Assembly: GCF_026151205.1 (NCBI RefSeq)
Contig: NC_087081.1
Span: 10,913,113-10,977,112 of the forward strand
Origin: Bolinopsis microptera
Lineage: Eukaryota; Ctenophora; Tentaculata; Lobata; Bolinopsidae
Length of the DNA: 64,000 nt
Reading direction: 5' to 3'
In this document: positions 9,528 to 64,000 of the stretch, piece after piece
Position numbering within the stretch: the stretch's first letter is position 1
Layout of the letters: every line of letters begins with the position of its first letter
The notes under the pieces: model-generated
Told to the model about the DNA's origin: nothing
The model's input: only the letters and a program-made list of their open reading frames with translations
Database searches by the model: none
Made by a program: the position numbers and the translations under genes

Positions 9528-18114
<8,587 letters not shown>

Positions 18115-40700: not shown

Positions 40701-43700
40701 TGACCCACGCGAATATTTAGTTCATCGCGTCGGTAGAAAACTAAAAGGATAAGGTAAAAACAAAGGTTGAAGACATCGCTTTAATTACACTTTTGAAGCT
40801 CTTAACTGCCAATTAGTAAAGATGACCAGCTATTAGAACATAAAATAATCATCGAATCATGAAAAGTGCCGAATCATACGTATATTATTATATACCCAAT
40901 ATGCTCCTACTGCCTACAGTCTACACATCTTATCTACGCCGGACTGTGAACCCCAAAGTAAGATAAAAAACCGGATATATAGAAAGAGATCAGTTCAGGG
41001 AGATCTATTCCAACGACTACACCTACCTTGATCCGTGAGGTACATGTCTTGGTTGATCGTTATGAGATCTAGAGTGCGCACATTTTAATCGACCAATCAC
41101 AATTACATGAATTTCGAGTACCGATCTTGATTATAAGTTTGAATTATGACGTACACAAAAGCACAAACGCCGGACACAGAACGTCAAAAAGGACGTGATA
41201 TTTTTCTCGTGGACCTTTTAACTAAACATTGTTCTATCCTTGGAGCTTTATCTTCATTTAAAAAAATGCTTTTGTAATGAATGATATTGTTTACTGTATA
41301 AAAATTCAGACAGGTCTTCAGAAACTGAGAGTTTGTGGCAAGCAGGCAATTAGCCTGAACTAAAGACAAAGTTGTTGAATAACGATGGAGAGGTGGATTC
41401 TTAAATTCTGCGAAGCTTATCACTTGAATAACATATGATTCGAACAGATAAAGATGTATTTGGGCCAATATATATTGTTATATTATATAGTAATTAACAT
41501 AAAATACAGGGTGGGCCAAAAGTCAGTACCCATACGTTGGACTTTATAGCTCAGTCACTGAGTGCCCAATTTAAATACTTCCTTCTGGTATGACTTAGTA
41601 CCACCACTGGTTCGAGGAATTTGTCAACTCGAAAAATATTCGCGTTCATTTTTTTCAAATGGAAGTTCATTTTCACATTTATTTGATAGTTTGGATAGTC
41701 GGATCAAGCTAAATGTTATTGAATTGTGTTTGGTCATTCGAATTACGTTTGTCCTGAAAGAATTAGAACTGTAGCTTCTCAGATGACTGAGATATGAAGC
41801 ATAACGAGTTTATTCATTACGTGTGATCAGGTGATTGGTTTACCTAATCACGAGATAAGGTTACCCCGTTAACTACCCCGTTAAACATTATGGGAATTGT
41901 TAAGGGTGCTCAATTAAGGTGTCGTGTCACGGTGTCACATAATCACCCAGTCAATTTTGTTAACGAGATACAGAAAATGCTTGATAACTTCGTCATTTCT
42001 AATCCGTTTTGCCTCATGTTTTCAGATCATATGCAACATTTGGTAATCTACCGTCTCTGAAAACATTAGGCGTTCAGCATGTTCAGAGAAAACAATATAG
42101 GTGTTTTAATATTGAATGGGCGTGGTCTAAAATATTCGAATTTTCAAATTTTGACGACGGAATCCTCGAACCAGTAAGTACAGTATGCCATCTGCAAAGC
42201 AACAGCTCTCAAATATAAAACACGGCGGAGCTATTAAGGCCAACGTATGGGTACTGACTTTTGGCCCACCCTGTACATTGTGTGTAGTGAGATAAACACA
42301 GTTAATAATTAATACGTCTACTCACGGGAATTCAGCTCCATTCTTTGGAGTATAGGATTTGTCTTTATTAACTAAAAAACACAGTCATGTTAACATTCAG
42401 ATTTAAATAATTAAGTAGGTAAGGTAAAGTTTTCATTAAACAATTTTAAATAATAGGTATAGTAGTTGATTCACTAAAACTCAAAACTCATACGACATTT
42501 CTTGTCAACCTACCAACACTTAGTGCTATTTTACAAAATATTCATTACTGAACTCACCTTTGATTCTTCTGAGAATAAAGAAGACTACCACTGCGATGAG
42601 GACAATGAAGACAACTCCGCCTCCAATACCCCCTCCTAGTATAACTGGCAGGGGATCTGCAAAATATACAGTTTACTGTAACAAAATATGATATAATACA
42701 AAATAAAAGTGGTCCGGTATATTATTCGTCCAAATAAGCGGAACCTTTTCAGTTACACGTTTTTTATTGCTTTTATATGGACAGTACTAACATAATAGGT
42801 ATAGTTGGCTCAAACTTTCATTTGACTGCCTGAATGTATCTAGCAATCGATGGCAAATCGATGACAAAAAATAAGCCAAAAGCGCCGAAGAAAATCATGG
42901 GTTCTTAAACGTTAAAACTGGTAGAATAAACAAATACCAAACTGACAGAAAGTCTTAAATCAGCACACACCTCTTTCCTCATATCAGTGGAAAATGACGA
43001 ACACTACTATTACCAATCATTACCATATAATACATCATATAAAATAATAAATCATCGAATAGAAGCATGCATGATGAACTTACTTTCACACCCAGTAATA
43101 CTAGGACCAACTATTTGCGTAGACTCTTTCAATACTTCTGATGAAGTCGTAGTTTTGACGTTACAGGAGAAATTCAATTTAAGATAGTCGCATGTTGTTG
43201 TGACACTGAACACAAACTTCTGAAATAAATGGTGATTAATGATAATATGACAATTTAATCATTCACTAACAATAATAGACAGATCAGAACTGGGAGACCA
43301 GCCAGGTTTTGTTAGTTCCTTCATGTCATGACCAACCTGAAGAAATAAATTGCAAGATTCAAGGATTAACATTTAAAAACTAAAACTTATGAAAAGCTAA
43401 CCGTAGAAGTTATAGTTGGACGTTCAGTGGTTTCTAACATACTGTCTTGTCCTTCAGAGGTTAGACTTGCTGACGGTGCGGGAAATCCTAAAACATGTGA
43501 TGATGAGCAGTATGTTCAAATTTTGAAGCATCAGAAGACATGACTCTTGATTTCAACAAAAGATTATTTTTACTTTATGTGCATGAATCATAAAATATGA
43601 TAATACATATCAACTTATAAATACCTTGGACAAAACAAGTGATAAATATCTGAGAACCCGTCTCAATGAATTCCGCGTCATTGTAATTGACTTTTGGTGG

Positions 43701-46700
43701 TTCTAAGAATTCCCGGTCTGTAAAATTGGATTTAGTATGGTAACTTAAACATCTCAATAGTGAAATATACAACCTTAAAGCAGCAAAATATTTGATAACT
43801 AAACTTGAAAAAAGCTGAAATTGGCATGATAGATATTTTCTTGAGATGTTATCGGCAGTGCAATTTTCAAATACTTCTTATTTCTTACAAGTTTTAAAAA
43901 AATAATGAACTGAACGACGACAGACACTTAATACTTATTACTTTAATAAAGAAACCCATGTCTCAAAAATTATGAAATGAAAATTCTTTAAAAACTCACT
44001 ATTTATGAAAACATTTACTGCCTTTGATATATTTTCACCGTCATGATCTGCGACATTACAGTTAAAGGTTCCATTGTATTCTGCCACAAGTTTCGTCAAA
44101 GTGAGCTTAGAAATCAGTGTGAAGTTATCTTCAGTTCCATCAACAGTTTTTACATATTCATTAAAATCAAAATCTTTACTATGTGTCCAGGTGACAGAGG
44201 ACTTATCGACCAAGGGCTTTCCAACAATGATGCAATCTATTTCGATAACCCCATTAGTAAGTACTGATATTGTCTCTTTCGAGACATTCACCTGTGTTTG
44301 TCTCACTGAAATAGTAAATGTAGCGTCGTATACAATTAGGATCCTGTACTGCAGATTTTCAAAATGAGATAAATATTATGAATTTTAATGTAATTATGAT
44401 GTTTTTATTGTTAATGATTTAAACACAATATAAAACTTATCATAGCCTACAATTTTAAATAGTGGAAAGTAAATGTCATACCGGTTGTTAATTTGACCCC
44501 TGACTCGTTCTCTATCTGACCACTCCGGCCTTCATTGTATCCCTTACACATATAGTCACCGTCCGAGTCGTACTCAGGTGTAAAATTATGTGTACAAGTT
44601 AGTACATGTTCACCAGAACATGTGAGGGATTCCACTGATCCATCTTTTTTCCATGTTTTGGTTCCTGCTAATTCAAATTAGAGTTCCATCAAATGATAAT
44701 TCAAAAATATGACAACATTTTATAATTATCATGACTAATCAAGTATTCAAGCAATTAAAAGTGGATACCGGTGATAATAACGCCAGTTTGGTAATAAAGA
44801 AACACTCACCTAGATTAGGCAGGATAAGATCAACCTGGTGGGGTGACAGCCCACCTTCAACTTTACAGGTGATGATTTTATCCTCGTGGTAAGTAATAGT
44901 TTCTTCTGAACCTTGTTTTGTTGATTGTGTGAAGTTATCACCATTCATTAATGTCATAGCAGAGTTTGAAACAATTTGAAAGAGCAATTATAATCATATG
45001 AAATTCTTATCATTCGAAGATTCATCCTTTGGGATTGAGACCACGCAAAATGAACTTAACTTACATATTAGAGAATAAAAGTAATAATATCAACTAACTG
45101 GGTGTGATTGTAGCCACGACATCTTTGTACACTGTGACAGAAAATTCCATAGTATCAGTCATTACACCATTGTTCATTGCTCTGTTTTCGGCAGTAACCG
45201 TAAAAGTCCCATCATAGGCCCAATTTACATCTTTTGCTCCGATCGTTTTTGTGCACGTCAGTGTATTGGTCCCAGTGCACACGTTTGAATCACCTTCCCA
45301 ATGAAAAATGTTGATAGTTTCAATGTCCAACTTCACCAAGTGTGGTGACCGACCACCATTAAGTTGAAAGTTATAAACCAATGAGGTCCCAAAATCAACT
45401 TTGATATTGTCTATCTGATCAATCTTCACGTTTCTGACTGAAAGAAAATAATCATAATAAACTGTTTTCTTCATGTGCTGACTTTTTTTCCTAGCGGTAT
45501 AAAAACATAATATACTTAAATCAATAGAATCATAATGATGAAGATATTTGAGAATTTTAATTCATAATTCATATATAAGTAAACAAACAAGAAAAATAAA
45601 TCAAAGATCACAATTATATATACATAAAATACTTTGTTAAATGTTCACGTTCATAAAATGATGATTATGGGGCTCAATAAAAAGTCTCGAAAAATACCAG
45701 AATTACTCAAAATCAATCAAAGGATAAAAATTTCCCAAAAACGATCAAAGACATGCAAGCACCTACAACGTACCAATTCAATAATAGCAGACTAGCAGTA
45801 TCAGTATGCAGATTATAGTTCATTATCAGCTCTACAATATTTATTCCCATTTAAATAGACAATTTGCTTTATAGATTTAAAATAATATCTTTTATAAGTG
45901 AATACTATGGTTTCAACTTTAAAACAAATTTCAGAGCCAATCAAACAAGCATTCAGTCAGAAAATTTCATAGATGGATATGAATTTTTTCTTCGTGCCAA
46001 AAAGTAGAGGCAGAACAATCTTAATCAACAAATTATCAAATACCCAATCAAAAGGTATGCTGACAAACCCTGACAGTTCACAACACTGATTATAATCGTG
46101 GGTGATTTTATAAACTAAACATGTATCAGAATAATCAGACAGACACATCTGTTGTTGACCGGGCTATCTCCTTACCAACGACAGCACTTTTAGAAGATTC
46201 GTCTGCCCTTTCCTGATTTTCTAAAGCATTATTCTTCCCAGTACACTTGTAGGAGCCGTTGCTGTCATATGTTATGTTGTTTATTGTATGAACGTACTCA
46301 AGGGAACTTTTCCCTTGAATAACTTTGTCGGACTGATCTGTTTTGTCGTGCTGGATGATTTTAGAAGTGATATTAGCGCTATTAGTAAAGTACACCGACA
46401 GGAAGAAGGGAGTTCTACCACCTTCAACTTTACATGTTAACTTTAATTCAGTTCCAAAATCAACTTCGTCAGATCCAGCACTAGAAGTTATTGAAGCTTT
46501 GACATTTCTTACGATAACAACTGCCACGGTCTTACTCTCAGTGTAAACAGTGGTGGAGTCAGCTGGAATCGTATTGTATCCGGTGCAATTGTAGTCTCCT
46601 GAAGCATTACAGCTGTATGTGTATAGGAATATAGAAAAACCTTGAAATAATCAAAAATAAAAACAATTCAAAAGATAAATATAGATATTGTTAACGTATT

Positions 46701-49700
46701 TTAAACTTGACAAAATCTCCCCGGCAACAGCATAGAACAATAATGTACCGAATCACCCCAATGAGCTATTGGGGATTTATTTCGCATTAATAAAAAAACA
46801 GATAAATTCATTTTGTTAAGATTTTACCAGTATTGTCGAAGGTGGTAGACGCTACTTTGTGAACACATTCTATTTCATTGTCTCCGGTGCAAGTAAACGT
46901 ATTTTGTACACTTCCCCTGGTAATAATTATGAAATAGCCATGAGTTGATCGGGTCACATTAAATTGCTATTAATTCCAATACCGACATCTATCTAAATAC
47001 AGACTGTAACGTTATAATAAAGGACCGGCAATAGAATATATACGTGGTTCTTATCAAGGACTTGGTATAATACTTACGAAGTATCACGATTCCATATTAA
47101 TATGGAACCATCTGGAAGATTCATAGTAGCTTTGTGTGGTTGATTGCCACCTTCGATGTTACAGGTAATACGTAGTAAGGAACCATCCCATTCCAACTCA
47201 CTTTCACTGAAGTAAAATATAATATGAACATGGTTTGAATCTCAAATTCTCATCGTTAAGACAAAGGATCTACCCTATTAATCAAGAGACCAAATAAATA
47301 ATATTACTTAAGGAAATAAAATATAATTGTTTATATTTGATAATCAATGGGGCCTACCTGGGAGGGGAAAGTTGAGTCAACACAGTTTGCGATATTTGCA
47401 AAGTTTGGTTGACTTCTCTGATTACTTCCTTGCTTTCAAGAGCATAATTTTTACTGATGCACGTATATCGACCTCCATTTGTATACCCTAAAAATTATTT
47501 TTCAAACGACTTTACAAATTTGGTAATATTATCATGGAATAAAATATTTACTTTTCAACGTTTAACACAAAAAGAAAAAGAAATTTTACGGAACAAAATT
47601 AAAGTTTGGTCTTTATTAACAAATTAAATCACATTATATAGATAAGATTCGTAACACTGCAGATTTCACTTTAAAATACACATTATTCAAGCAAAGAAAG
47701 ATATTTCTAATGTAATAAATCTTGTGATTAAGACCTAATACTCACCGATATTAGTTACACTATGAACACATTCGAATTTGTAGAACGTCAAAGCGGTGCA
47801 ATCACTATCAGTAGCCTGATTGTCCCAATTTATCACCAAACTTCCATCCTTTTCCAGAGCAATATTATGAGGAGGTCGGTACCCTTCAGCAATGCAGGAG
47901 ATCGTCAACTGTGAACCTTTGTCCACTATATCAAAATTAGATATCGTACTCGTCACATCTCTAACTGAAAGAGCCATATTTCTATGGAGAAAGTTCTCCA
48001 ACTCAAGTACCTGTCACCTCAAATAAAATGTTATGATTTTGTAGAAGAGTACCTTATGAAACCAATTAGTTTGTAAGTTTGCCAATAACAAACTAACGCA
48101 ATAAGGGAATTTTACCTTCAGATACATTTAATTATTGACAAACAGCCGTTTTCTTTAACGACAAACGTTTTCAGTAACTTTGAATTATCATTATTAATAA
48201 TCTTCATCGTGAATTCTTATTATTTATGATCATCAAAAATAATATTAATTCCAGGATCACACCACACTAACCCACTATGACGTCCACCTCATCTTCAGCG
48301 TCTTGTTCTGCCATCAAAGCAGCTTTATTCTTGGACAAACACTTGTAGGTTCCAATATCATCATAACCGGAGTTTGTAACACTGCTAACATACGTCAAGG
48401 TATTTCCACCATCATCCACTGTTACAGAGTCTGGAGTCTTTGATGCTGTGGTGTCATATAAAACAAGGTCTTTAGGCGTTGAACTGTCGAAAGGAGTCTG
48501 AATTAGCTCAAGATAGAATGGAATCCTGCCACCTTCTGCGACACAAGTTATTTTGAATTCGTTTCCATAATAAACTTCGTTTAAATTCGAAGTTATGGTA
48601 TCTGTTAGCTGCAACTCCACGTTTTTAACAACAACTAAGGACCCAGTCGCCAAACTACTCCTCTCATTGGTTTCACCAGGGAGTTTATTATAACCGGTGC
48701 AACTGTACTGCCCTGCAATCAATATAACCAGTAATTTACCAACCAAATTTACACGTCAAAGATAAACTACATCCATTAATAAGTGGGATTGTATCAGATG
48801 ACATACCTTCAATAAATATAATTATTACAAACAGTGCTAAATTGATTCGCATCTAATCGAACAGCAAAAATAGTTCTTGAATGTTCAGTTATATCAAACC
48901 TTCGTTGGAATAGACTGGACTGGACATCTCATACTTGCAAACTAGATTAAATTCTCCAGTACACGTCAATGAATTTCCTGAACTGAAATTGTGTATTTTT
49001 GAAGGGTATTTCAGTCTTTTTAGTATACTTTGAAGCTCTGATATGAAAAATATTCCACTAGTTTAAATTGGATGATTTTATTTCGGATTAGCGGAAGTTA
49101 AATCAATATTTTTTCCTTTACCTGCCTCGCTGCCAAGTCATGTCGGTACTACTGTCCGGAATGTTGAGAGTTACTTTGTGAGGTTTATCGCCTCCTTCGA
49201 CATTACACGTAATAGTGTATGCAGACCCATAGGTTATTTCTGTTTCACTGCAAAAAGTATCAGTCTATCCAGTGCTATTATTTAAAACATCAGTTTTGTC
49301 TGGGTTACAGAAAATATTGTTATATTGGCGGCGTATGTCAATATATCTGTTTTGTAGCTTGATAGTTGACTAAAGACTACACATCTAACTCGCACGAGTT
49401 AACTTATAAATTAAACGACTAGTATCATGACATTGCAGTTTAATTAGTTTTAACCTCGCAGGAGTAAGGGACACCACAACAGTCTTAGATACAAATATTT
49501 GAACAGATTTGAAATCTGTTCGCACTGCATTTCCCGCTACTTTGTTCAATCCAGTGCAAGTGTATGTACCTCCAACAGAGTAATCTGAAGTTATTCATCA
49601 TGTTTTATCATTTTAAATAGGATTTAATTTTGTTTAACCTTAATGATATATTCAATACTACTGCAACTGATAACAGTTCTTAAATTCTGACGTTGCGTAC

Positions 49701-52700
49701 TTCACACAAAAACGTCTTATCTAGCAATTTATTGTTTCAACGGCGTTTAATGTACCGTTAACAGTGTGTGTATATGTGCACTTCTTGGAATAGTCTCCGT
49801 CATCAGTACAGGGGAACACTCCAGTAGAGATCGCAGTACCTTCATGTGCGAGAGTAACACTGTGGGGTTTTCGTCCTGTAAAGTGTAAAACATCAAGGAA
49901 TAAGTAACATGGTACCAAGCAAATAAATTCCATTTCTAATCTTAAGATTTAGAACAACTGGTGAAGTTTCTTTATTCCATAAAAGTTGTAACTCACACAC
50001 TCTCATAACTACCTCCAGTTGCTGTACAGGTTATAGTAAAGGCATTCCCAAAAGATGGTTCATCAGTACTGGCTGAGAGGGAGACAGTTACATCAGACAC
50101 TACGGTCAGAGTTTTGGTGTCATTATCTGTTTGTGTGCCGCCATTGTCATTTTCTCCTTCACAAGTATAGTCGCTTGTGTCAGTTAATTTCAAGGGATTG
50201 ATAGAGTACTCGTACGAGAGGTGGTACGTTTCTTTGCCTACAGTGGAGTCGCTGCCACCAGTATAAGATTTGACGACCTGAGTCCCCTTTTTGAAGATTA
50301 GTTTCGTTGGTAGAGGACTTCCTTCAACTTTGCATGTGAAAGTAACAGAGGATCCTTTTGGAAGTTCAGAATTAGCTGGTGACTGGATTATTGTAGCGTC
50401 CACATTTCCCACTGAAAATAATGCCTTTTATTTCTAGTCGAAAAATCAAGGTCTGAACAGATATTACTGAAAAGTGAAAGAGCCTAGTTCCTGCAACGTT
50501 ATGTGCCGATAATTTAAGGAATTGTGGTTTCTTTGATGAAGAATTATAATAAGGTTAACAAATTATTTTTGCTCACCAATCTCTAGGGTGAGAGAATCAG
50601 ATGATTTATAATATGGTTGAGCGACACCATTTTCCCCCTTACATGTATACACTCCAGAATTTGTATACAATGCAGAGGAAAACACTTTTATGCAAGTCTT
50701 AGTAGTAGTTCCAGAGCACGTCATCGCAATAGTTGAAGCTAAACTGTCGATTGTTTTTGATAATACAGGTTCACGGGGTTCAGGGTATCCTTTAACAACG
50801 CAGGTTAGCGTGACTGAATTTCCTTTGTCAGCAGGGTTTTTACTGACTGTAAGTTCTGTTGTACTTTCTGAAATGAACAAGACTATGAGTCAAGTAGGTG
50901 AAGAATTAAGGGAATTTAATATTTTCTCAATCTACAAAAAAAGTTGTTGCTTTAAATGATCTTATTTAATTTGAAAAACATAGTTGCTCCTACTAAAGTT
51001 GCTACAATCAGAATAACTGTCACCGTATGATAAGGTAGCGTCGTCAAAAGCTGAGTTCACTATAGCTGATGCACTAGCAGTAGTGCTTTTATACCACTTT
51101 GTTTCGACAGCGCATTTGTAATCCCCTGCATCTTCCAGTTTGAAGTTATTTACATTAACCACATAGTTTATCTTATCAGTAGAACTGCATGTAACATCCC
51201 CACTAGAGCTTGAAGTCAAACAATCAAAACTCAGAGAGTTCGGTCCGCTGATAGTTACAGATTTTATAGGATATCCACCCACAGTACATGTAATTGTAGC
51301 TGCAGTATCGCCTTGTACACTAACAGTTGTTGGAGTGAACCCAGCAGAAGGGAAAGCTGCAATGATATTATTAGACGGACGTCGACATTATATGATATTA
51401 TTAGTCAGCATCAATATGATTATTCTTTAAAAACTTTATAATAGTACAATACATAGATTGTACCGATGTTAGTATCATCAACTATAACATACGACTTATC
51501 ATCATAATATATCAGAACTGGCATTCTAAAGTTACTTTCTATCATGAAACTTACCAGCAATGACAACGTTTGTCGTCTTCTGATACCACAACATTTTGTT
51601 TGGATCATTAGACATCCCGCATTGGTAAACTCCACTTTTATCAGATGTAATACTTGGGCCGAAATCATATATTTCAGTGACTGATAAACCAGTCAATTGA
51701 TCGGGCATTTTATACACTGCATTTTGAAACACAGTGTTTCCAGAACTAAGGGACCCCTTACATCCTATTTCGAACGGAGTGTGAGACTTCGTGTTATCAA
51801 AAGTGTCATACCACATGTAGTCTGGAGGAGACTTTGAGAATGTGAATTTGAGCATCGGGTTAATCTCAGCAACTGAAAAATAATTAGAAAATAACAATGT
51901 CATACTTATACCAGTTCATGACCTTATAATAATCTTTCCACTTTTGAAATTTAAAATCGAAACAGACCTCATTATTAGCTATTTTTGAAATTTGATGAAA
52001 AGTGAATACATTTGATTCCTTAGTAATTAACTACTTTTACTTACGAGAGCTAGTAAACGTGACATCCTCCGACGAGACATCAGAATTACACTCTGAATCA
52101 AGAATCTCACACGTAAAAGTAGCTGTGCCAACAGAGTCGATTGTAACAATATGTTCCCTTGTGTCTGCTATAAGGTTTTTTATGCTGTCTTTCCACTGGT
52201 ATTGAGCATCGTAGCTACCACCGGACGTCCTACATGCAGCTCCACACATCAGTAACACCTTGTCACCAACATTGGGGTTAAGTTTGAGCTTCCCAGTATC
52301 ATCTACAGAAAGCACCATGTATCCTGTAATTATATCTAGTGGCTTGACCGGATAATCCTTCTCTGAAAGAATGATTTAACTATAATTTTACAGATCGTTT
52401 TAATTTATAACCTTCACTAAGGTCTAATATTGTCAGTGTTCATTGGATGTTCTGGAATAATTGAATTATACAAATTTCACAACTCACTAAACTCCGATTT
52501 TATTCTAAGTTTTATTAACTACAATCCTAGGACCCTACATTGTAAATCGAATTGTACATTCGTTTCCATGTAGCACTTCGCCTACCTATAGGAACTGTAA
52601 GGACTGTTGACCCTAAGAGAACTTCTTGTTTGTTGACTCTAGACACTGCCTTACACAAATATTTTCCTTTATCACTTGTTCGTACACTAACAATTACCAG

Positions 52701-54086
52701 ATCATACCGATCAACTGTGCTCAGTGTGACTTCATAATCCCCAGCAAATTCAAATTCATAATTGTCAAATTTAGTGGGATTGTAGTAAGTCCACATATTA
52801 TCATGGTTATCCTCCACTCTACCCGATTCTCCTTCTTTAAACCACTGTACATCGTAAGGTTCTCCATTTGTTATAGATGTATCAAAATCGGTTTCGTTTG
52901 CATTACATTGTATTCTGAGCATATAAACCCCTGCTTCAGTTTCTTCATCTGGTGTTGTTACCACCTGGTCTATGTAGCTCTTTCCAGTACTATCGTATTC
53001 GATATTGTCTGATAGAAAGGGCTAGTTACGAACAGAAGTTTTACCCTTCCAGGTATTTCGATATAACTCGACATTTATATAAAATACTGATTACATACGA
53101 TAATGAATCATAAAATTTATTGCCTCATTTTCTATATTAAACCAATTAGCAATGTTCCTAATTTACTTATATTAATGTGGTAATTTAAACTGTTTCAAAA
53201 AGAATGCAGACTAACTACTAAGCACTTTCCCATTTACTTACCTGTCAAGGCATATTTGACTGTTGCAACATCACTGAGAATAATATCGTCTCCATAAGTA
53301 GCTTTACACTGGAACAAATTATCCTCTCCACTCTCATCAACATCAGCTGCTTGTACTACATACTCTGTTCCTGTAGCTCCACTAATCAGGTCTGTGTTCT
53401 CAGGAGGTGTGTTGAAAGCTGTACCTAGCTTGTACCAGGAGTATGATATACCAGTTCTTCTCGTAGTTACACAGGACAAAGTAACAGTTCCACCAGAATT
53501 AACAGTTTTTGACACAGGTTGTGATGTGAACTTGAATATATCAGGTCCTGATAATAGAAACATATTACTATTGACTATTGAGTATTGAGATATTGGGTAT
53601 AATTTGGGATTAGCATTTAATGCAGGTATCGAATTTGATAAAACAATATAAAGACTATTTACCGCATTTTGATCTGATGATAAGAAGACACAGCACGAAT
53701 CTGAAATAATATTTTTCAGTTTTGAGAAAAAGATATTCGAATATTAACTTCACATTTTTCGGTATTCCATGGTCATGGTTCCAATTGCAGCAAAATCAGT
53801 TATATTGTTACATAGACAATTCAAGTTATCTGTGGTTCGATTTGATCTTGTTTATTATTCATCTTTATTTATTGTATTGAACATTTAATTGAGATAATTA
53901 TGAAGGTGGGACGCTTCTTTAAAAGACTTATTTTCGATAATATGTATTTTTCTCTGAAAAGAATATTCGATACGTCCGTCCAATAAAAATTATAGTAGCA
54001 CTACAATGTACTATCTTTGAAGTGTGACATACAGAAAGAATGATGAATTGTATAAACTTGACTTACAAAAGCAAGAAGTTGTTCAT
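25799..54086 (-). CDS. Multi-Ig single-pass receptor with long tyrosine-rich cytoplasmic tail (41 exons)
   Basis: All phases agree over 41 exons (2,232 codons plus stop). Order: signal peptide (54086-54067, 53700-53663); ectodomain exons 53547-53242, 53008-52586, 52362-52045, 51872-51555, 51356-51024, 50867-50577, 50411-50013, 49875-49756, 49584-49455, 49247-49122, 48982-48900, 48712-48272, 47964-47746, 47487-47358, 47206-47078, 46916-46828, 46598-46176, 45437-45099, 44905-44810, 44664-44482, 44305-44000, 43717-43625, 43487-43402, 43219-43084; transmembrane exon 42656-42558; then 14 tail exons to 25951-25799. I see about 17 Ig-like domains (C-x-V-x-G and Y-x-C core patterns), with first cysteines mostly in contexts such as TCKVEGG. 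Tail tyrosines sit in YATV, YADV, YGTI-type motifs. The architecture is that of a cell-surface recognition or signalling receptor, comparable in layout to invertebrate Ig allorecognition receptors such as Hydractinia Alr proteins; orthology is not claimed. The 44905 acceptor is the least certain boundary. Confidence 0.85.
26584..26608 (+). repeat. Poly(G) tract, 25 bases
   Basis: An uninterrupted G run in a receptor 1 intron; can form G-quadruplex structures on the + strand. Confidence 0.9.
26953..27615. mobile_element. GC-rich giant palindrome made of GGACTCCGAGCGG units
   Basis: The outer arms GGCACTATCCGTCGCGGAGT and ACTCCGCGACGGATAGTGCC lie about 620 bp apart. Inside, AAAATGTATTTACACTGGAC (about 27072) is mirrored by the reverse complement at about 27515-27536, and ACTTTAAAGT palindromes lie in both halves. 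Nearly all of the 660 bp is built from C/G-rich GGCGGACTCCGAGCG words in both orientations, in sharp contrast to the AT-rich intron around it. A foldback transposon is likely. Confidence 0.7.
28214..28430. mobile_element. Possible hAT-like miniature element remnant
   Basis: Starts CAGGGCCGTAA and ends TTACGCCACTG, inverted-repeat ends of the CAG-G-G-CGTA type common in hAT elements. The flanking 8-mers are not clearly identical. Confidence 0.4.
28728..28832. repeat. 10-bp tandem repeat next to a receptor 1 donor site
   Basis: About ten copies of GTGTATCACA / GTGTGTCACA directly on the intron side of the donor of exon 28918-28844. Confidence 0.85.
29824..30489. repeat. 19-bp minisatellite with 35 CACGTG boxes (array 1)
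   Basis: Unit TGTCACGTGCCAGAACCCT repeated 35 times, almost without variation (one unit has an extra A). Each unit has the palindromic E-box CACGTG. The array lies in a receptor 1 intron. The unit is open in all three + frames only because it lacks stop triplets; it is not a gene. Confidence 0.95.
30511..30541 (-). pseudogene. Truncated duplicate of a receptor tail exon
   Basis: The donor end of the 31068-30994 exon (coding for PYNMADRQ and the donor CAG|GTAAC) is repeated here, but the 5' part with its YADV motif and acceptor is missing. The flanking intron (TTAACTGGTATCAAACCATT) matches 29745-29822, so exon plus intron were duplicated with the minisatellite and then partly lost. Confidence 0.8.
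30628..30969. repeat. 19-bp minisatellite (array 2), 18 units
   Basis: Same unit as array 1; 16 of 18 units keep CACGTG and two have CCCGTG. The flanks on both sides match array 1, so the two arrays come from a duplication of about 480-690 bp. Confidence 0.93.
33693..34212. repeat. 20/21-bp minisatellite, about 25 units, with splice-site-like motifs
   Basis: Units ACCTCCTAAAACTCACCCCTT and a variant one base shorter alternate irregularly. On the gene (-) strand each reads AAGGGGTGAGTTTTAGGAGG followed by TAAGG, so it holds the donor-like sequences GGGGTGAGT and GAGGTAAGG and the acceptor-like TTTTAGG. It lies in the receptor 1 intron between tail exons 35142-35047 and 32420-32397. Confidence 0.9.
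35698..35771. repeat. 16-bp tandem repeat ACACTGAACACATTTT
   Basis: About four and a half copies in a receptor 1 intron. Confidence 0.8.
36368..36486. mobile_element. Miniature element, family E (119 bp)
   Basis: Ends CGTATTGGGGGCTACC and GGCTGCCCAATGCCCCCC-AATACG are inverted repeats. The interior (CTATACCTATTTTGAAATCG) matches 58270-58290 and 60525-60540, the two halves around the reverse transcriptase at 58.5-60.5 kb. Confidence 0.6.
38640..39603. mobile_element. GGCCGGGG-rich foldback element
   Basis: The left end TGCATCGTGATCGGTGGTC and right end GACCACTGATCGTGATGCA are imperfect inverted repeats. Both halves hold arrays of GGCCGGGGCCGGGG with AT-rich sequence between. It lies in a receptor 1 intron. 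Open frames rich in Pro/Ala/Gly here are by-products of the composition. Confidence 0.65.
38712..38807. mobile_element. hAT-type miniature element nested in the foldback
   Basis: 96 bp, starts CAGTGGCGTAACG and ends CGTTACGCCACTG, flanked by perfect 8-bp direct repeats CCGGGGCC (38704-38711, 38808-38815). The ends and the 8-bp duplication are the hAT signature. Confidence 0.8.
41507..42273. mobile_element. Tc1/mariner-like non-autonomous element, 767 bp
   Basis: Perfect 34-bp terminal inverted repeats (CAGGGTGGGCCAAAAGTCAG onward, reverse complement at 42240-42273), flanked on both sides by TA, the target of this superfamily. The interior open frames (41562-41774, 42009-42218) show no transposase motif. 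The perfect ends imply a recent insertion. It lies in the receptor 1 intron after the first tail exon. Confidence 0.85.
42558..42656 (-). other. Receptor 1 transmembrane exon
   Basis: Encodes VILGGGIGGGVVFIVLIAVV-VFFILRRIK: a glycine-zipper start (GGGIGGG), a hydrophobic helix, then a basic stop-transfer. There is no charged residue inside the helix, so pairing with a charged adaptor of the DAP12 kind is not suggested. Confidence 0.9.
43084..53547 (-). other. Receptor 1 ectodomain: about 17 Ig-like domains
   Basis: The first seven domains are each one exon, mostly phase 1-1, the classic shuffled-Ig arrangement. Later domains are spread over two or three exons, and 48712-48272 and 46598-46176 each fuse the end of one domain to the start of the next. 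Repeated linker phrases (VRNV, VKNV, VRDV) mark domain starts, and the phrase VEGG with a following P-H marks the B-C turn in several. This shows the membrane-proximal domains arose by internal duplication. The last, split domain includes a Ser/Thr-rich insert (ETTERPTITST). Confidence 0.8.
53663..54086 (-). CDS. Receptor 1 signal-peptide exons
   Basis: A 20-nt exon (54086-54067) gives MNNFLL, which joins in phase to 53700-53663 to give L-FVLCLLIIRSKCG and then PDIFKF of the first Ig domain. This is a short, clean hydrophobic signal sequence. Another ATG 12 bases upstream runs into a stop at once. Confidence 0.7.
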
Positions 54087-54469
54087 GTTGACATGGTCGT
54101 ATCTCCATTGAAGTTAGCTACACCATAGTAACACTATATAATTTAGTTTAAGTGTTATTTTAAAAACATTGTAGTATAATCATTTTGAAATGATTGCAAA
54201 ATAGTGCTTTTAAAAAATAACTTGTTTCATTAGATAAAGAAAGTTGACATGGCCTCTTACTATATTAGGATCAGCAAATAATTGTACATTTATATTACTT
54301 TAGTAGTAAACATCTAACATAGGTAGTATCCAAAAAGCATGATGTGAACTTATCTCGTAAGGTAGTTTAACAAGCTTACCACCGAGTGAAATTCGAGTGC
54401 AATTATGTGATTTATGAACCCTGCTTGCGAAAATGTGAACCATGTTTTCGATGATATGAACCCTTCTTG
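54087..54469. other. 5' flank of receptor 1
   Basis: Should hold the receptor 1 promoter and 5' UTR. AT-rich, no distinct element seen before the 8-bp duplication at 54470. Confidence 0.35.
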
Positions 54470-54946
54470 GGCTGTACGGGGGGGGGGGGGGGGGGGGGCC
54501 AATGACTACCAATGGAGACTAATGGGGACTAAAAATCATGGGGACTGGAGGTTAACTCGTTGACGTAATTCACCATTTGTCCCCATAAGTCCCCAGAATT
54601 TTTGACAGTTATTTATGGTTTCCAAGTTAGTTTAATAACGATACGATCGAGATGTTTTGTCCAAGATAAGAGTAGGATAAACCTGACTTAAAAGTAAAAT
54701 GATAAGCCCGGTTGTAATGTGTTCTACCACTGTACAAGTCAGTTCAGATTGAGGTAAATTGAAGTTTAGCTCTCGTGAAGGTAGAAGTAGCCGACTCGCT
54801 GAACTATCTGAATCTTATAATCGAATGAAAAATCATGAATTAACCCTTCGACTTACCCTCCTAATACACTTAAAGATGTTAGATGATGGGTGAATGAGTA
54901 TTTATAACAGCCGTTCTGTGAACAGACTTGGTGATCTTTATTTTAA

Positions 54947-57353: not shown

Positions 57354-58212
57354 TTTAAGCACTGGCAAGCACTCTTTTGTGAATATTCCCATAAATGATC
57401 GTCAAAAACAAAAGAAACCAATACAACGCCAATTTCAAATTACTGAGCATATCATTTCAGACAGATAAATACAAAAGTAATAAGAAAAATTGATAATGCG
57501 TTTATTTTCCTTGCGCTACAACTCGTGTTACTAGATCAATCTGATAAAATAAGCGTATATATGCAATATGTCTCCTCAATGTTGTCATTGGTAGTCGCCC
57601 CTGCCCCCTCCCTTAATTTACCTGAGGTACTCTAACAGCCCTCAAGTAGCTCCCAAGAAGTCAGGAATGTCCAGTGACCATTTATAAATATTCTAGACTT
57701 CAGTCTTGAGAAGTTTACGATCTGGTCTGGAGAAGCCAGATTTTTTGAAATCTAAATGGGGACTAATGGAGACTTTTGGGGACTAATGGGGACTAAAAAT
57801 CATGGGGACTCGGGGTAAAATCGTTGACGTAATTCCCCAAGTCCCCAAAAGTAGTCATTGGCCCCCCCCCCCCCCCCCCCGGCTGTACATAGTGCAAAGT
57901 ATTCCGCGGACTGGTATCAGGTATACGGACAGGACAATGGACATGTGATCTGCACCATCTGCCATCACGTAATAAAAAGTCCACGGACTTGGTTCACTGG
58001 GTTGCAGGGTTGGGCTTCTTAGATACTGCCTCGATATAAATAATGAATATCTATTATAATATTTCAAAGTGCACTAAAGAAAAATTACCCAAATTCGTAA
58101 TTTATGTATCCAATTATATTAGGATTCCCTGGAGGTATATGATCGTTGAATGCAAAATTCTTACATCCAAATTATATAACAGTATAATACAAAAATTACA
58201 ATCTGTGGGGGC

Positions 58213-58243
<31 letters not shown>

Positions 58244-58330
58244 ACCCCACAAATACCTATAAAAACCTATATCTATTACCTATTTTGAAATTGGAGGGGA
58301 TAATAGGTATTAATAATTTAAATCCAGTCT
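58213..58330. mobile_element. Left half of a split family E element, starting with poly(G)
   Basis: A run of 29 G followed by CAACCCCAC and ACCTATAAAAACC, CCTATTTTGAAATTGG. The matching right half (CATATTTTGAAATCGG ... TATTTATGGGGTTGACCCCC) is at about 60510-60585. Confidence 0.5.
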
Positions 58331-58470
58331 CCATGTAGATAATGCAGAATTCTGAATGGATTTTTGGCCCTATACTTGCATAATTTTATTAGTCGTTAAC
58401 AATAATACCTATAAATACCTATAAAAATAAAAACCTATAGATACCTTAATTATTAATACCTATAAAAATA

Positions 58471-60454
58471 ATTTATACTGAACTGTCACTTGAACGCAAG
58501 CAGCTGATGATTGCGAATATGCAGAACAAATTCCCGACCAACAGGAAGCATGTCAAGACCAACATCAACCAGCTAAGACGTAAGATCACAAAGAGACTCA
58601 GAGATATCAACAACCGCAGTGCTGACACACTCGTCGAAGAGATAAACAACACAGACGACGCCCGGAGATACTTTGGAGCCTCTAAGATACTCGCCAAAGG
58701 ATATGTTAGACCAGCTCTAACCGTCCACAACTCTGCTGGGAATATCGCAGGTACTAATGAGGAGAAAGCGAGAATTATTAAGGAGTACTTTGAAGCTGAG
58801 TTCAACGACGCTGATGAGCCTACCCTTCCTGCCTTCCTTGACCCCCCATCTAGCCTTAACAGTCCCATCACCGTTGCAGAGATAGAGAGAGCCATCAGTA
58901 AACTCAAGTCTGGTAAAGCAGTGGGTATTGATAAAGTTCCTGGCGAGGTCATGAAAGCCCTGAACAACCCCCTCCTTCATGAAGAGCTAGCTAAAGTGTT
59001 CAACGAGTCTTTCGAGAAAAACATTCACATTGAAGCAATAGGAGCAGGCATCCTCACACCACTGGCTAAGCCTGGTAAAACTCGTGGCCCAGTTAAGTCG
59101 ATACGACCATTGACCCTGCTGTGTGTTTCTAGAAAGATCCTGTCACTGATAGTGCTAAACAGAATAGAGAGAGCTGTGGAGTGTGGACAACTTCACCGGA
59201 CCGTTCCAAGCTGCCTACAAAGCTGGCAGGAGCTGTGCCGACCTAGTTTGGGCACAGAGCATGCTCATATCTGTAGTAATGAAGAAGGAGTTTGAATGGA
59301 ACAAAGTGAGTATCGACATGTCAGCTGCCTTCAATACCATCCGCAGAGGTACAACAATCAGACTACTAGAAGCTGCAGGATGCTCCAGAGACGACCTGAG
59401 GCTTGTACAATACCTCATGGCTAACACCACTCTAGTAGTCAGAGTGTGTTCTACTGACTCAGAGATGTTCTCTTTCAACATAGGAGCCTCTCAAGGAGAC
59501 AGCACAGCTGGTAAATTGTTTACCCTCAATCTAGCTGGAGCTGTAGTGCACATAAGAGCAGTCCTCCCCTCAAAACCCAACCCTCCGATAGCCGATAACC
59601 ACATGCCTCTTGAGTCCGGCTATTCAGACGATGTAGAGGAGATTGGTGAAAATATGGAGGAGTTACAGGATATCTTTCAGATCTCCAAGAATATTCTCAG
59701 TGAATGGAGTCTCTTTGTCAATGACACAAAGACAAAGTTTACCAGAGTGTATTTAGAAGAAGTTGGTGCCTGTGACGAGTGGGGTAATGAACTAAGAGGA
59801 AAAGAGGAGTGGAGAAACGAGACGCTTCTTGGTACTAAGCTTGGATCAGAGCAGGATGTTACTAATAGAATAAATAAAGCTAACTCTGCCTTCTGGTCAT
59901 TTGACAAGCTGTGGTGCCAGGGATCAGAGAGGAGTCAGATAACTGAGAAGAGAAAGATCAAACTCTACGACTCACTAGTAGTATCAGTGCTCCTGTACAA
60001 CTGCTGCTGCTGGGCCGTACCTCAGCATGTTCTAGAGTCTGTAGATGTTGTTCAGAGGAAGCACCTCAAGCGCATCCTACACATCTATTGGCCTAGCTCA
60101 ATATCTAACAAGGCCCTCTACGCTCGTACCCAGACCAGGCCCCTTTCCGAGAGAGTGGAAAAGGCACGGTGGACAATGTTAGGTCATGTTCTACGCAGTG
60201 ACAACGACACGCCTGCCTACCAGTCTCTGTTATTTGCGACACTAGGATGTCAAACACTAAAGGGACGAGTGGGTAGACACAGGACTAATTTGTATGATAT
60301 TATTGTGAAAAAGGACCTATTTAAGAGACAAATTTATTTGAAAAATGAAGATAATTTTACCAACTTAGTGAACTTAGCAAGAGATAGAGTAGGATGGAGG
60401 AGTTTATTTACTTTGAGACATATTGAACGAATGAGTCTTCGTAAGCGTAAATAG
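58471..60454 (+). pseudogene. Frameshifted non-LTR reverse transcriptase
   Basis: Two frames (to about 59180, then 59183-60454) give one continuous reverse transcriptase if one frameshift at about 59175-59190 is allowed. Blocks: GKAVGIDKVPGEVM, RPLTLLCVSRKILSLIVLNR, then after the shift GPFQAAYKAGRSCADLVW, SIDMSAAFNTIRR with the first catalytic Asp, GASQGDSTAGKLF, and GYSDDVEE with the catalytic Y-S-D-D. There is no endonuclease domain, so it is 5'-truncated and inactive as it stands. It is a different lineage from the copy at 20391 (different motifs throughout). It lies between the two receptor genes. Confidence 0.8.
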
Positions 60455-60499
60455 GCCAGCACTTTGCTGAGCCTCTTTAGGTGCTCTTTTGTTTATAGA

Positions 60500-60592
60500 T
60501 GTTATTATATATATAAAAACCTATACATATTTTGAAATCGGAACCGATAATATGTATTTATGGGGTTGACCCCCTCCCACTTCCAATCTATT
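60500..60592. mobile_element. Right half of the split family E element
   Basis: ACCTATACATATTTTGAAATCGG then TATTTATGGGGTTGACCCCC, mirroring the left end at 58213-58300 and resembling the intact copy at 36368-36486. Confidence 0.5.
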
Positions 60593-60953
60593 ACAATTCA
60601 CTCAATCAAAAAATAACAAACTATAAGAAAATATTATAAAATAACGAAGTAACTTTACCAAATGGGGTCCAATTCCTAGCAAAAAATATTAATTAAGCAA
60701 AATCACTTTCCTTCGAAAAGTAAGTTCCTTGTGTACATCAACAGTCGAATTATGAGTTACAAAAAGCTAAAAAGGCGACAAGCCAAAGCAACTATTAACA
60801 TCTAAATTGAAACTTTGATGTCTATTTTTGCTTAGGAACGGTAACATTTAAGATAACTGTGTAATACATGCCGTAGCGATATATGAATTACTCATAATAG
60901 GCATAAATCAACTTTAAATGTAAAGATATTTTATCTTAACTCGTGATTGTGAT

Positions 60954-63385
60954 TTATTTCAATTCATGATTGTGATAAATTGTAGGTTCTTTAATATTAT
61001 GTCTTATTATGTCTTCGTTTCGAGCATAATCATATGGTGTATCATCTGGTGCAGAAACAGTTCGGATCACAACGTCATTATACACATGACCAGTAGTGGG
61101 CGAGGTTCCAGCAATTGTGTTGACATAAGTAGCCTCTTCGGGGGTAACATGGAGAACAACATTATCATAGTTGTGTCCAGACAGGGTGATGACTTCAGCT
61201 TCCATCCTTTCCATCGTCAACTCCCCTCCTTTCAGTTTGGAAACAACAGCATTTGCATAGACCACATTTCCAGCAGATGAACTATTCTGATTGCGTCGTG
61301 AGCGTAGAATATAAACTCCAGCCACTATTGAAGTGATAAAGAAGAGCACTGCCACACCTGATGATATCAAGACTCCAATATTTTGTTTGGGGTTGCCTGA
61401 AAAATAGTGAATAATTACGATAACATGAATTACACAACTACAAGTGTGTCAGGAAACGCGAATTTACACTGTAAAACCACAAGAAATTCCTCAAATTTCT
61501 TGTAGAGATTGAAATACAAATAATGTTGAAACTTTGAAGGTGGTCGACTCACTTTCACACCCTGTAATACTAGGACCAACTATTTCCGTAGACGCTTTCA
61601 ATACTTCTGATGAAGTCGTAGTTTTGACGTTACAGGAGAAATTCAAGTTAAGATAGTCGCATGTTGTTGTGACACTGAACACAAGCTTCTGAAATAAATG
61701 GTGATTTATAATGTTAATATGACAATTTAATCATTCACTAACATTTATATACAGATCAGAACTGGCAGACGCCAGACAAGCCAGGTTTTTTGTTAGTACC
61801 TTCATGTCATGACCAACAAGAGGAAATATATTGCAAGATTCACGAATTAACATTTAAAAACTAAAACGTTATGAAAAGCTAACCGTAGAAGTTCTAGATT
61901 GACGTTCAGTGGTTTCTAACATACTATATTGTCCTTCATAGGTTAGACTTGCTGACGGTGCGGGAAATCCTAAAACATGTGATGTTCAGCAGTATGTTCA
62001 AATTTTGAAGCATCACAAGACATGACCCTTGATTTCAAAAAAACAGTCAAGGTAAGATTATTTTGTATTTTTACTTTAGGTGTATGAATCACTAAATATG
62101 ATATGTACGATATATAAACTTATAAATACCTTGGACAAGACAAGTGATAGATATCTGAGACCCCGTCTCAATGAATTCCGCGTCATTGTAAGTGACCTTT
62201 GGTGGTTCTAAGAATTCCCGGTCTGTAAAATTGGATTTAGTATGGTAGCTTAAACATCTCAATAATAAAATAAACAACCTTAAAGCAGCAAAATATTTGA
62301 TAGTTTGAAAAAAGCTGAATTTGGCATGTTAATTATTTTCTTGAGATGTAATCAGCAGTGCAATTTTCAAATACTCCTAATTTCTTACAAAGTTACAAGT
62401 TAAAAAAATAATGAACTGAACGACAACAGACACTTAATACAGAAACCCATGTCTCAAAAGTTATGAAATGAAAATTCTATAAAAACTCACTATTTATGTA
62501 CACATTCACTGCCTTTGAAATAGTTTCGCCGTCATGATCTACAACATTACAGTTAAATGTGCCAGTGTACGTTGTTAAGGGGTTTTTCACTCTTAGCGTT
62601 GAATTCAGTGTAAAGTCATCTTGCTTTCCCTTGACAATAGTCACAGATTTGCTCAAATCAAAATCCAAATCTTTACTATGTGTCCAGGTGACAGAGGTTA
62701 TGTCGACCAAGGGCTTTCCAACAATGATGCAATCTACTTCGATAACCCCATTATTAAGTACTGATATTGTCTCTTTCAAGACATTCACCTGTGTTTGTCT
62801 CACTGAAATAGTAACCTGTATTGCAGATTTTCAAAATGAGATAAATATTATAAATTTTAATGTAATTATGATGTTGTTATTGTTAATGATTTAAACACAA
62901 TAAAACTTATCATAGCCTACAATTTTAAATAGTGGGAAGTAAATCTCATACCGGTTGTTAATTTGATCTCTGACTTGTTTTCTCTCTGACCACTCCGGCC
63001 TTCATTGTATCCTTTACACTTATAGTCACCGTCCGAGTCGTACTCAGGTGTAAAAGTATGTATACAAGTTAGTACATGTTCACCAGAACATGAGAGGGAT
63101 TCCACTGACCCATCTTTTTTCCATGTTTTGGTTCCTGATAATTTAAATTATAGTTCCATCAAATGATAATTAAAGAATATGACAACATTTTATAATTATC
63201 ATGACTAATCAAGAATTCGAGCGATTAAATCGAATGTGGATACCGATGATGATAATATCATCAGCCAGTTTGGTAATAGAAACACTCACCTAGATTAGGC
63301 AGGATAAGATCAACCTGATGGGGTGACAGCCCACCTTCAACTTTACAGGTGATGGTTTTATCCTCGTGGTAAGTAATGGTTTCTT
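60954..63385 (-). CDS. Second multi-Ig receptor, 3' part (seven exons seen; 5' part outside window)
   Basis: Exons in phase: 63385-63290, 63134-62952, 62802-62491, 62222-62130, 61969-61884, 61688-61553 and the last 61396-60954. The first six are one-to-one copies of receptor 1 exons 44905 to 43084, introns included, and encode the last three Ig-like domains. The last exon is unrelated to receptor 1: it encodes the transmembrane helix (ISSGVAVLFFITSIVAGVYI, then RSRR) and a ~105-residue tail in one exon, with tyrosines in VYANA, NYDNVV, TYVNTI, VYNDVV and PYDYA. YAN, YDN and YVN fit the Y-x-N docking core of Grb2-type SH2 domains. No stop or frameshift is seen. The upstream exons are expected beyond the poly(G) element at 63465. 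Confidence 0.85.
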
Positions 63386-63464
63386 CTGAACCTTGTTTTG
63401 ATTGTTTAAAGTTATCACCATTCATTAATGTCATAGCAGAGTTTGAAACAATTTGAAAGAGCAA

Positions 63465-64000
63465 GGGGGGGGGGGGGGGGGGGGAGGGGGGGAGGGGGTG
63501 ACATGTCCGCTAATGTCCGCCTATGTCTTGCCCTTTTTGGATTCTATGAGACAAACGGTCGTGTTTTTGGGATATTAGCGGAGTCATCCTCGATACGTAC
63601 CTCTGAAGGCAGGGCTCCCGCTTCCGAGCTCGCACTGCAAAAGGGAGGCCTGCCTTCAGGGATCGCATTACAAGAGGAAACCCTCGAGTCCAAAAATCGT
63701 ACATCGAAGGGTAGTTCCGGACTCCGGATTTCGAAAATCGAACAAATATTTTTGGCTAATAATGATCAGGGTAGCTAGCATGAATCGTGAACAAAAATAG
63801 TTTCAAGAAAAACTTTGAATTAAACTTTTACTTAGAAAATGTTCGGTCCGAGCCATTCTCGATACGTACCTCTGAAGCCTGAAGGCAGGGCTCCAGCTTC
63901 TCGAGTCCACAATCTTATATCGTAGGGTAGGTCCGGACTTCGAGAACCGAAAAAATATTTGACTCACAAAATTTTCGGCCCGAGTTTTTTCTTAAAATTT
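63465..64000. mobile_element. Poly(G)-ended element interrupting receptor 2 intron
   Basis: Similarity to receptor 1 stops abruptly at 63464 (GAGCAA) and is replaced by a G run and GGGTGACATGTCCGC, the same kind of end as at 54947-54990. Inside, CTCGATACGTACCTCTGAAG occurs twice (about 63589 and 63861), followed each time by GGCAGGGCTCC. The element runs off the window. Confidence 0.6.

Follow-up and report, generated by a model that had tools for sequence, protein, structure and literature searches.

The genome of the comb jelly Bolinopsis microptera (NCBI RefSeq assembly GCF_026151205.1, 264.65 Mb searched) contains, on contig NC_087081.1 (C10), two neighbouring genes which probably encode a pair of tandem type I membrane receptors with one polymorphic immunoglobulin (Ig) ectodomain outside and two different tyrosine-motif tails inside, so that the balance of the tails would set the response. 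The analysis started from a 64,000-nucleotide stretch, C10:10913113-10977112, hereafter the window. In the gene models, both reading frames are open, a second version of the pair with collinear flanks is present on another contig, the ectodomains match within each version, the two ends of the proteins follow gene position, and the tract of similarity stops at the border between the ectodomain and the transmembrane (TM) part. Recombination thus appears to copy the ectodomain between both genes and to stop at the tail. The C10 genes are termed A1 (receptor 1, tail 1) and A2 (receptor 2, tail 2), and their counterparts on the unplaced contig C21 are termed B1 and B2; C1 to C13 are the 13 large scaffolds of 15-26 Mb each, which hold 97.5% of the assembly bases. 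A glutamate-receptor locus of the assembly has an open frame of 970 residues; the C-terminal half of its ligand-binding region finds ML032222a of the ctenophore Mnemiopsis leidyi as best PDB match (E 1.7e-32), a longer query of 888 residues ranks vertebrate kainate receptors first and ML032222a lower, and a second such locus gave no PDB match at E <= 1e-70.

Two intact genes with a shared ectodomain

Receptor 1 lies entirely within the window, and receptor 2 enters it with its 3' part. The features of both genes in the window are as follows.

25799..54086, minus strand: receptor 1 gene (A1), 41 exons and 2,239 codons, with a signal peptide, about 17 Ig-like units (counted by eye), a TM segment and a tail; the TM/tail part takes up 15 exons
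53663..54086 (54086-54067, 53700-53663), minus strand: A1 signal-peptide exons 1-2, MNNFLLLFVLCLLIIRSKC, start codon inferred, 83 and 75% amino acid identity with the C21 tail-1 gene
43084..53547, minus strand: A1 ectodomain exons 3-26, the portion common to receptor 2, hyperdivergent between the putative haplotypes
43084..44911, minus strand: A1 membrane-proximal exons 21-26, duplicate of 63391-61553
42558..42656, minus strand: A1 transmembrane exon 27, from the splice model
25799..42371, minus strand: A1 cytoplasmic tail exons 28-41 with 13 YxxΦ motifs, 11 of them YAx[VLI], and three strict immunoreceptor tyrosine-based inhibitory motifs (ITIMs; SNYADV once, SEYADV twice)
30994..31068, minus strand: tail-1 exon 37 (RPIPSEYADV...), resembles exon 38
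29645..29725, minus strand: tail-1 exon 38 (RPILSEYADV...), resembles exon 37
43078..43083 (and 61552-61547), minus strand: 3' border of the shared tract; the donor-site consensus, the first 6 bases of intron 26, is the last part still alike, and C21 has the same border
60954..64000, minus strand: 3' part of the receptor 2 gene (A2), which continues to C10:10988744 (75632 in window numbering carried on past base 64,000) and has 27 exons and 2,241 codons in total
61553..63391 (63391-63290, 63134-62952, 62802-62491, 62222-62130, 61969-61884, 61688-61553), minus strand: A2 ectodomain exons matching exons 21-26, from self-comparison and splice borders
62491..62802, minus strand: A2 exon 23 with a mosaic patch, in which alignment columns 120-239 are 83-92% alike to the C21 haplotype and 63-72% to receptor 1
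60954..61396, minus strand: the one exon for the TM segment and tail of A2, containing four YxN motifs; on C7, open reading frames (ORFs) with a DSL domain are followed by related exons
63465..64000 and past the window end, minus strand: insertion in the intron before A2 exon 21, with a poly-C edge and repeat DNA, which splits the upstream exons from the part in the window

The A1 model is complete and open, with AG/GT at all internal borders. A2 has no stop over its 2,241 codons and contains about 19 Ig-like units (by eye); it is devoid of counterparts of exons 15-19, and exons 3-7 are present twice. The ectodomains belong to the immunoglobulin superfamily (IgSF) by profile: a Pfam scan of the receptor 1 ectodomain found Ig_3 in seven stretches (E 9.2e-58) as well as V-set, I-set and Ig_2 above the cut-off, and the ORFs carrying exons 6 and 20, scanned singly against Pfam, gave no match. 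A short open stretch between A1 exons 25 and 26 (~43336-43270), possibly an alternative exon, was excluded from the model because receptor 2 has not conserved its acceptor. Two arrays of a tandem repeat with a step of 57 bases lie in the tail-1 introns (29824-30967), and the stretch between them resembles the 3' end of exon 37.

The first-pass annotation of the window had described a duplicated ectodomain with conserved introns joined to two unrelated tails, and this layout is borne out. Self-comparison of the window aligns 61547-63464 with 43078-44987 at 87% identity over 1,970 bases, introns included, and the six A1 exons in this region (44911-44810, 44664-44482, 44305-44000, 43717-43625, 43487-43402 and 43219-43084) pair one to one with the receptor 2 set, all with AG/GT borders. 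Its exon limits needed a correction of 6 bases at the 5' ends, which lie at 44911 and 63391 and not at 44905 and 63385. Beyond the first 6 bases of the following intron, no similarity was found between the TM/tail parts: the window self-comparison gave no DNA match between tail 1 and tail 2, and genome searches with either tail protein did not recover the other. The described make-up of the tails, 15 exons with tyrosine motifs in receptor 1 (exons 27-41, 42656-25799) and one exon with YxN motifs in receptor 2 (61396-60954), could likewise be reproduced. Receptor 2 might still have been a dead fragment without upstream exons; this is ruled out, as the remaining exons were found past base 64,000, where 20 of the 27 modelled exons lie within the next 20 kb upstream and continue the open frame.

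In the ectodomain, the aligned pieces with introns are 87-94% alike between A1 and A2 and 89-98% between B1 and B2. That DNA similarity ends at the tail merely through fast intron evolution is ruled out, since the ectodomain introns align and intron 26 ceases to do so right after its donor site. At the other end, the shared tract on C21 starts ten bases upstream of exon 3. A remnant of receptor 1 exon 2 stands ahead of the second copy of domains 1-5 in A2 (A1 53686 against 72356 in window numbering), a sign that unequal exchange carried receptor-1 DNA into receptor 2.

A second version of the pair

A genome search with the receptor-2 tail and the duplicated DNA found both parts together in a single other place, the unplaced contig C21 of 81,740 bases, in which gene order and orientation are as on C10, with the tail-2 gene followed by the tail-1 gene.

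C21:57810-21992, minus strand: tail-2 gene (B2), 27 exons and 2,007 codons, open
C21:18491-301, minus strand: tail-1 gene (B1), 29 exons modelled, open; the tail-1 exons run off the contig end

Exon 30 of B1 was seen by tblastn and stands outside the model. Exons 1-2 of both tail-2 genes, exon 18 of B1 and B2 and exon 25 of B1 were picked by eye, and the B2 tail exon was taken from the first acceptor giving a long frame.

The flanks are collinear on both sides. C21:6-1863 aligns with window positions 40064-42689 at 90-91%, apart from an insertion at 41502-42279, and C21:56700-60051 aligns with 74603-77075 in window numbering in pieces of 86-93%. Farther out, C21:74755-81734 corresponds to C10:11015035-11018052, with 94% identity in 74755-76546, 87% in 76740-77249 and 81% in 81508-81734. 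The comparison left aside C10 10996800-11010000, and C21 60051-74755 consists largely of repeats and is not collinear. Both far flanks contain two exons (L036:6171-6666 on C10; C21:75889-76382) with Pfam matches to Arm_3 (E 1.6e-13) and Arm (E 1.5e-6), which we take to be part of an importin-alpha-type gene and which are 98-100% identical in protein. With the help of these exons, the locus could be traced in other ctenophores.

Searches with the receptors themselves led back to the same two places. Among the matches listed, 20 of 22 for receptor-1 domains 1-4 lie at C10 or C21, the other two (C10:11698750 and C1:10801500) being weak, and all 16 for tail 1 do so; a third locus close to the ectodomain was not found among the scored candidates of two ectodomain queries. 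The idea that the ectodomain belongs to a large dispersed family is thus unsupported as far as close relatives are concerned. Because of the collinear flanks, the importin-alpha-type exons and the confinement of receptor matches to C10 and C21, we infer that C21 is the other haplotype, which would have been assembled as a separate contig on account of being too different. Stretches of C22 and C20 queried for the ordinary divergence between haplotypes turned out to be mostly repeats and gave no estimate.

C21 has two further structural peculiarities. Intron 24 of B2 contains an insertion of ~15 kb (C21:23228-38212) with inverted ends of 396 bases at 95% identity, in which three of the four ORFs of at least 150 amino acids at C21:26000-35999 were scanned and had no Pfam match. 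At C21:62595-68713 lies a near-perfect inverted palindrome of 6.1 kb (98.8%), portions of which recur on many scaffolds.

Ectodomains follow the putative haplotype, ends follow the position

Comparison of the four genes places the ends of the proteins and their ectodomains in two different groupings. In exon 1, amino acid identity is 83% for A1-B1, 100% for A2-B2 and 40% between genes; in exon 2, it is 75% for A1-B1 and 83% for A2-B2, and 33% for A1-A2 and 50% for B1-B2. The tails are likewise conserved between the haplotypes, with 93-97% amino acid identity in tail-1 exons 27-29 and 79% in tail 2. The ectodomain exons, by comparison, are 71-97% identical in A1-A2 and 79-100% in B1-B2 (98-100% in exons 4, 5 and 7-19), and 42-81% between the haplotypes. 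Over the 19 exons that all four genes have in common (3-14 and 20-26; exons 15-19 and the extra A2 copies of exons 3-7 were left out), 1,267 of 1,273 informative sites group A1 with A2 and B1 with B2, the two alternatives receiving three sites each (support 100/100). This matching is most simply explained by gene conversion or unequal crossing-over that is limited to the ectodomain.

The number of synonymous substitutions per site (dS) in the ectodomain is 1.03-1.05 between the haplotypes, 0.15 for A1-A2 and 0.02 for B1-B2; the smallest divergence between haplotypes is that of the first Ig exon (dS 0.18-0.24). Outside the ectodomain, tail-1 exons 27-29 (64 codons) have a dS of 0 between haplotypes, and tail 2 has one of 0.30. 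At the nucleotide level, divergence amounts to ~25% in most ectodomain exons and to 1-2% in tail-1 exons 27-29; for the larger flank pieces, it is mostly 6-14%. Provided that C21 is an allele, the two haplotypes are extremely divergent in the ectodomain and less so in the flanks (72-94% DNA identity) and tails. Such divergence between haplotypes is, judged from the sequences, the pattern expected of a recognition locus, and it goes beyond what could be seen in the window. Ratios of nonsynonymous to synonymous divergence (dN/dS) above 1 were found only in single exons within haplotypes (such as 23, 25 and 26), on few changes, and in one B1-B2 block, on very few.

Two signalling tails

Tail 1 comprises 348 cytoplasmic residues with 18 tyrosines. 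Its 13 YxxΦ motifs compare with 2.75 expected, and its 11 YAx[VLI] motifs with 0.20; none of 2,000 shuffles reached either number. Tail 2 has seven tyrosines and four YxN motifs, with 0.63 expected (P = 0.001 for A2 and 0.0035 for B2); a motif scan of this tail found no ITIM and no spacing typical of the immunoreceptor tyrosine-based activation motif (ITAM). YxN is a Grb2-type docking motif, and YxxΦ is the core of ITIM-type motifs. In the A2 TM sequence, NIGVLISSGVAVLFFITSIVAGVYILR, no charged residue was seen inside by eye. Receptor 2 thus has neither the charged TM residue through which activating partners couple to an ITAM adaptor nor an ITAM of its own.

Potential partners for the tails are encoded in the genome, in which 33 SH2 and 73 tyrosine phosphatase matches were found (0 and 3 of the 14 control genomes, respectively, gave matches). 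On C8, an SH2 match (5782310-5782498) lies directly upstream of phosphatase matches (5781365-5780009) on one strand, an order that looks SHP-like from the coordinates. On each of the contigs C102 (25555-26089) and C107 (10984-11517), both outside the 13 large scaffolds, two SH2 matches lie ~40 bases apart; they are perhaps alleles of one tandem-SH2 gene.

The single exon of tail 2 has relatives elsewhere. At two C7 loci that were opened, an ORF with a DSL domain is followed downstream by a single TM/tail exon that is 56-66% identical to tail 2 and stops short of the last YxN:

L040:8303-9898 = C7:17740702-17742297: DSL-domain ORF and tail-2-like exon, DSL E 1.9e-7
L041:6711-9868 = C7:6584710-6587867: DSL-domain ORF and tail-2-like exon, DSL E 1.1e-15

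These loci share with receptor 2 a related single-exon TM/tail, and differ from it in an ectodomain ORF of the Delta/Serrate type, without Ig profile matches in Pfam, and in the earlier stop of the tail. At one of the loci, inspected at the DNA level, the tail exon has a phase-1 acceptor as in receptor 2, and the DSL ORF has a donor near its end; ORF and exon are presumably spliced together. Of the 16 listed tail-2 matches outside C10:10974069 and C21, two were opened and both have the DSL link, the others lying on C7, C1, C2, C5, C8 and C11; further tail-2 matches occur at C7:6.23-6.84 Mb. Because a related exon follows DSL ORFs on C7, tail 2 looks like a shuffled cassette, and receptor 2 may have originated through the placement of a tail-2-type exon after the Ig ectodomain, or the other way round. 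If a tail exon is indeed common to receptor 2 and DSL proteins, a signalling partner can be gained in one step.

Comparison with known recognition systems

The SIRP, LILR, KIR and Siglec pairs of mammals are linked genes with near-identical Ig ectodomains on different tails, and sequence is exchanged between the partners. The comb-jelly genes correspond to such paired receptors in that they are clustered and have highly similar ectodomains and different TM/tail parts. Linked genes, near-identical Ig ectodomains, differing tails and exchange of sequence between partners are also described for CD300A/C (PMC12447643). In contrast to the mammalian pairs, receptor 2 lacks a charged TM residue and carries a YxN tail of its own, tail 1 is mostly without the ITIM -2 residue, the ectodomains are composed of ~17-19 Ig-like units (by eye) where mammalian ones have a few, and whole ectodomains differ between haplotypes.

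The allorecognition receptors Alr of Hydractinia are IgSF proteins as well, for which ITIM and hemITAM-type motifs are reported on candidate genes (PMC12065747), and form a family of 41 genes (PMC11999971). The likeness lies in cell-surface IgSF receptors with tyrosine motifs; the comb-jelly locus, compared by description and not by sequence, differs in consisting of two genes with one common ectodomain in each haplotype and in belonging to another phylum. In the fuhc locus of Botryllus, fester and FcoR form linked receptor pairs on polymorphic haplotypes, and FcoR tails contain ITIM, hemITAM or core Y-x-x-I/L/V motifs (PMC12065747). The members of the Botryllus pair differ from each other, fester having Ig and sushi domains and three TM domains and FcoR being a type I protein with several Ig domains and one sushi domain (PMC12065747). 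In the comb-jelly pair, in contrast, the ectodomain is common to both receptors, and the differences lie in signal peptide and tail. The S-locus pairs of plants are two linked genes, a ligand and a receptor, that are co-inherited as divergent haplotypes. The comb-jelly pair resembles them in its two linked genes on divergent haplotypes but would consist of two receptors with one ectodomain. As read from the gene models, the locus unites two known features, a receptor pair and its matching within and extreme difference between haplotypes.

A ctenophore receptor locus of this kind (searched for as allorecognition, ITIM, histocompatibility and Mnemiopsis self-recognition) was not found in the open-licence literature, which is mostly without subscription journals, so that the search is no proof of novelty. 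In a paper on the Mnemiopsis immune repertoire, a term search found neither ITIM nor allorecognition and two matches for immunoglobulin (PMC11797021); in a Mnemiopsis population-genomics paper, it found neither immunoglobulin nor balancing selection (PMC13231562). The single elements have precedents, and their combination in the ctenophore lineage appears to be new.

Proposed mechanism and alternative explanations

In the proposed mechanism, exchange between both genes would keep the ectodomains matched, and balancing selection would maintain divergent haplotypes, thereby giving each haplotype its own specificity. Both receptors would have a common ligand, which might be this very ectodomain on another cell. 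With its many YxxΦ docking sites, tail 1 could recruit SH2 proteins such as an SHP-like phosphatase and set a threshold, and tail 2 could recruit Grb2-type SH2 adaptors and promote a response; by analogy with paired immune receptors and missing-self systems like that of natural killer cells, the net output would be set by the balance of the tails. The ligand is most likely one polymorphic molecule common to both receptors, with the tail balance setting the response, and its source may be the cells of other individuals, microbes or gametes. With regard to the proposal in the first-pass annotation of an immune or self/non-self cluster with possibly opposing outputs, paired anatomy, intact genes and a recognition-like divergence of haplotypes agree with it, and receptor 2 shows none of the features of an activating partner that were looked for (ITAM spacing and, by eye, a charged TM residue).

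Several observations weigh against this mechanism. The allelism of C21 is argued from synteny, and the flank piece C21:76474-76738 (269 bases) is only 72% alike. The sample consists of one animal with two haplotypes. Gene-wide positive selection was not seen across the ectodomain, dN/dS being ~0.35 between haplotypes, 0.5 for A1-A2 and 0.92 for B1-B2. The protein of exon 23 breaks the haplotype rule, with 74% identity for A2-B2 and 71% for A1-A2, because A2 contains the mosaic patch (columns 120-239) that is nearer to the C21 genes; this patch points to exchange between haplotypes as well. Only three of the 18 tail-1 tyrosines lie in a strict ITIM (P = 0.019 against shuffles), and one tail-1 pair has ITAM-like spacing (P = 0.057).

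C21 might instead be a paralogous second cluster, arisen by segmental duplication or as a missed tandem copy, in which case each haploid genome would contain two diverged pairs and polymorphism would not be implied. Its position outside the 13 large scaffolds, the flank pieces of down to 81% and 72% and an ectodomain dS of ~1, which is very high for alleles, would fit this explanation; it is distinctly unlikely, however, in view of the collinearity with C10 on both sides, the importin-alpha-type exons with 98-100% identity in protein and a 1.8-kb flank at 94%, and C21, which ends inside the tail-1 gene, is therefore more than an added cassette. Such assemblies are moreover known to yield haplotigs as a by-product, and these were purged in the published Bolinopsis assembly (PMC10232365). 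Even with C21 as an allele, the genes could encode ordinary adhesion Ig proteins located where recombination is suppressed or introgression has occurred; the divergence would then be a neutral relic and the tails a by-product of exon shuffling. The lack of a positive selection signal between haplotypes and the resemblance of tail 2 to a cassette that also follows DSL domains speak for this explanation, but we consider it unlikely, as the excess of divergence is concentrated in the ectodomain (~25% versus 1-2% in tail-1 exons 27-29 and mostly 6-14% in the flanks) and on both haplotypes the exchange ends right at the TM border.

Recognition itself could serve other ends than the distinction of tissues. 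The ectodomains could bind microbial or parasite ligands, so that selection between host and pathogen, and not self/non-self matching, would drive the divergence of haplotypes. Mnemiopsis individuals are reported to fuse, and rejection of fused lobate ctenophores is not known, which favours such pathogen-facing receptors and counts against a role of the locus in tissue fusion. Mammalian pairs of like layout are described as recognising shared ligands with opposing effects (CD300A/C, PMC12447643). Pathogen-facing receptors nevertheless seem rather unlikely, since divergence of the whole ectodomain, very old lineages and only two genes resemble a balanced recognition locus more than an expanding immune family, and the two ectodomain queries gave no third close locus among their scored candidates. 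Another candidate role is the recognition of gametes, by which hermaphrodites would tell their own from foreign ones. Linked, hyperdivergent pairs that are matched by haplotype are a hallmark of self-incompatibility loci. The authors of a Mnemiopsis study suggested that self-fertilisation is costly; the same study found that Mnemiopsis does self-fertilise (PMC4811168), so any barrier would be weak, and the tyrosine-motif tails suit somatic signalling at least equally. A gamete function is therefore very unlikely.

The preferred explanation thus remains the pair of receptors with one polymorphic ectodomain and two tails. Whether it forms the first allorecognition-type locus of ctenophores, with a haplotype-locked pair, a hyperpolymorphic and possibly homophilic ectodomain, exchange that stops at the membrane and a tail shuffled from or to DSL proteins, is a more tentative matter, for which we see a possibility somewhat short of even. 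If the preferred explanation is true, self/non-self or immune recognition in ctenophores gains a concrete candidate in the form of one locus, at which it can be tested how two linked receptors stay specific for one target while the target-binding part diversifies. With an allorecognition-type locus, the inhibitory/activating logic of paired receptors on balanced haplotypes would be as old as animals or have arisen again independently, ctenophores being the lineage proposed as sister to all other animals.

Further features of the window

Two reverse-transcriptase ORFs (RVT_1) are encoded on the plus strand of the window, one at 59168-60454, between both receptor genes, and one at 20313-22577. 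An ORF with a PHD finger on the minus strand (12294-13397) runs into a tandem repeat with an 84-base step, which is open on both strands.

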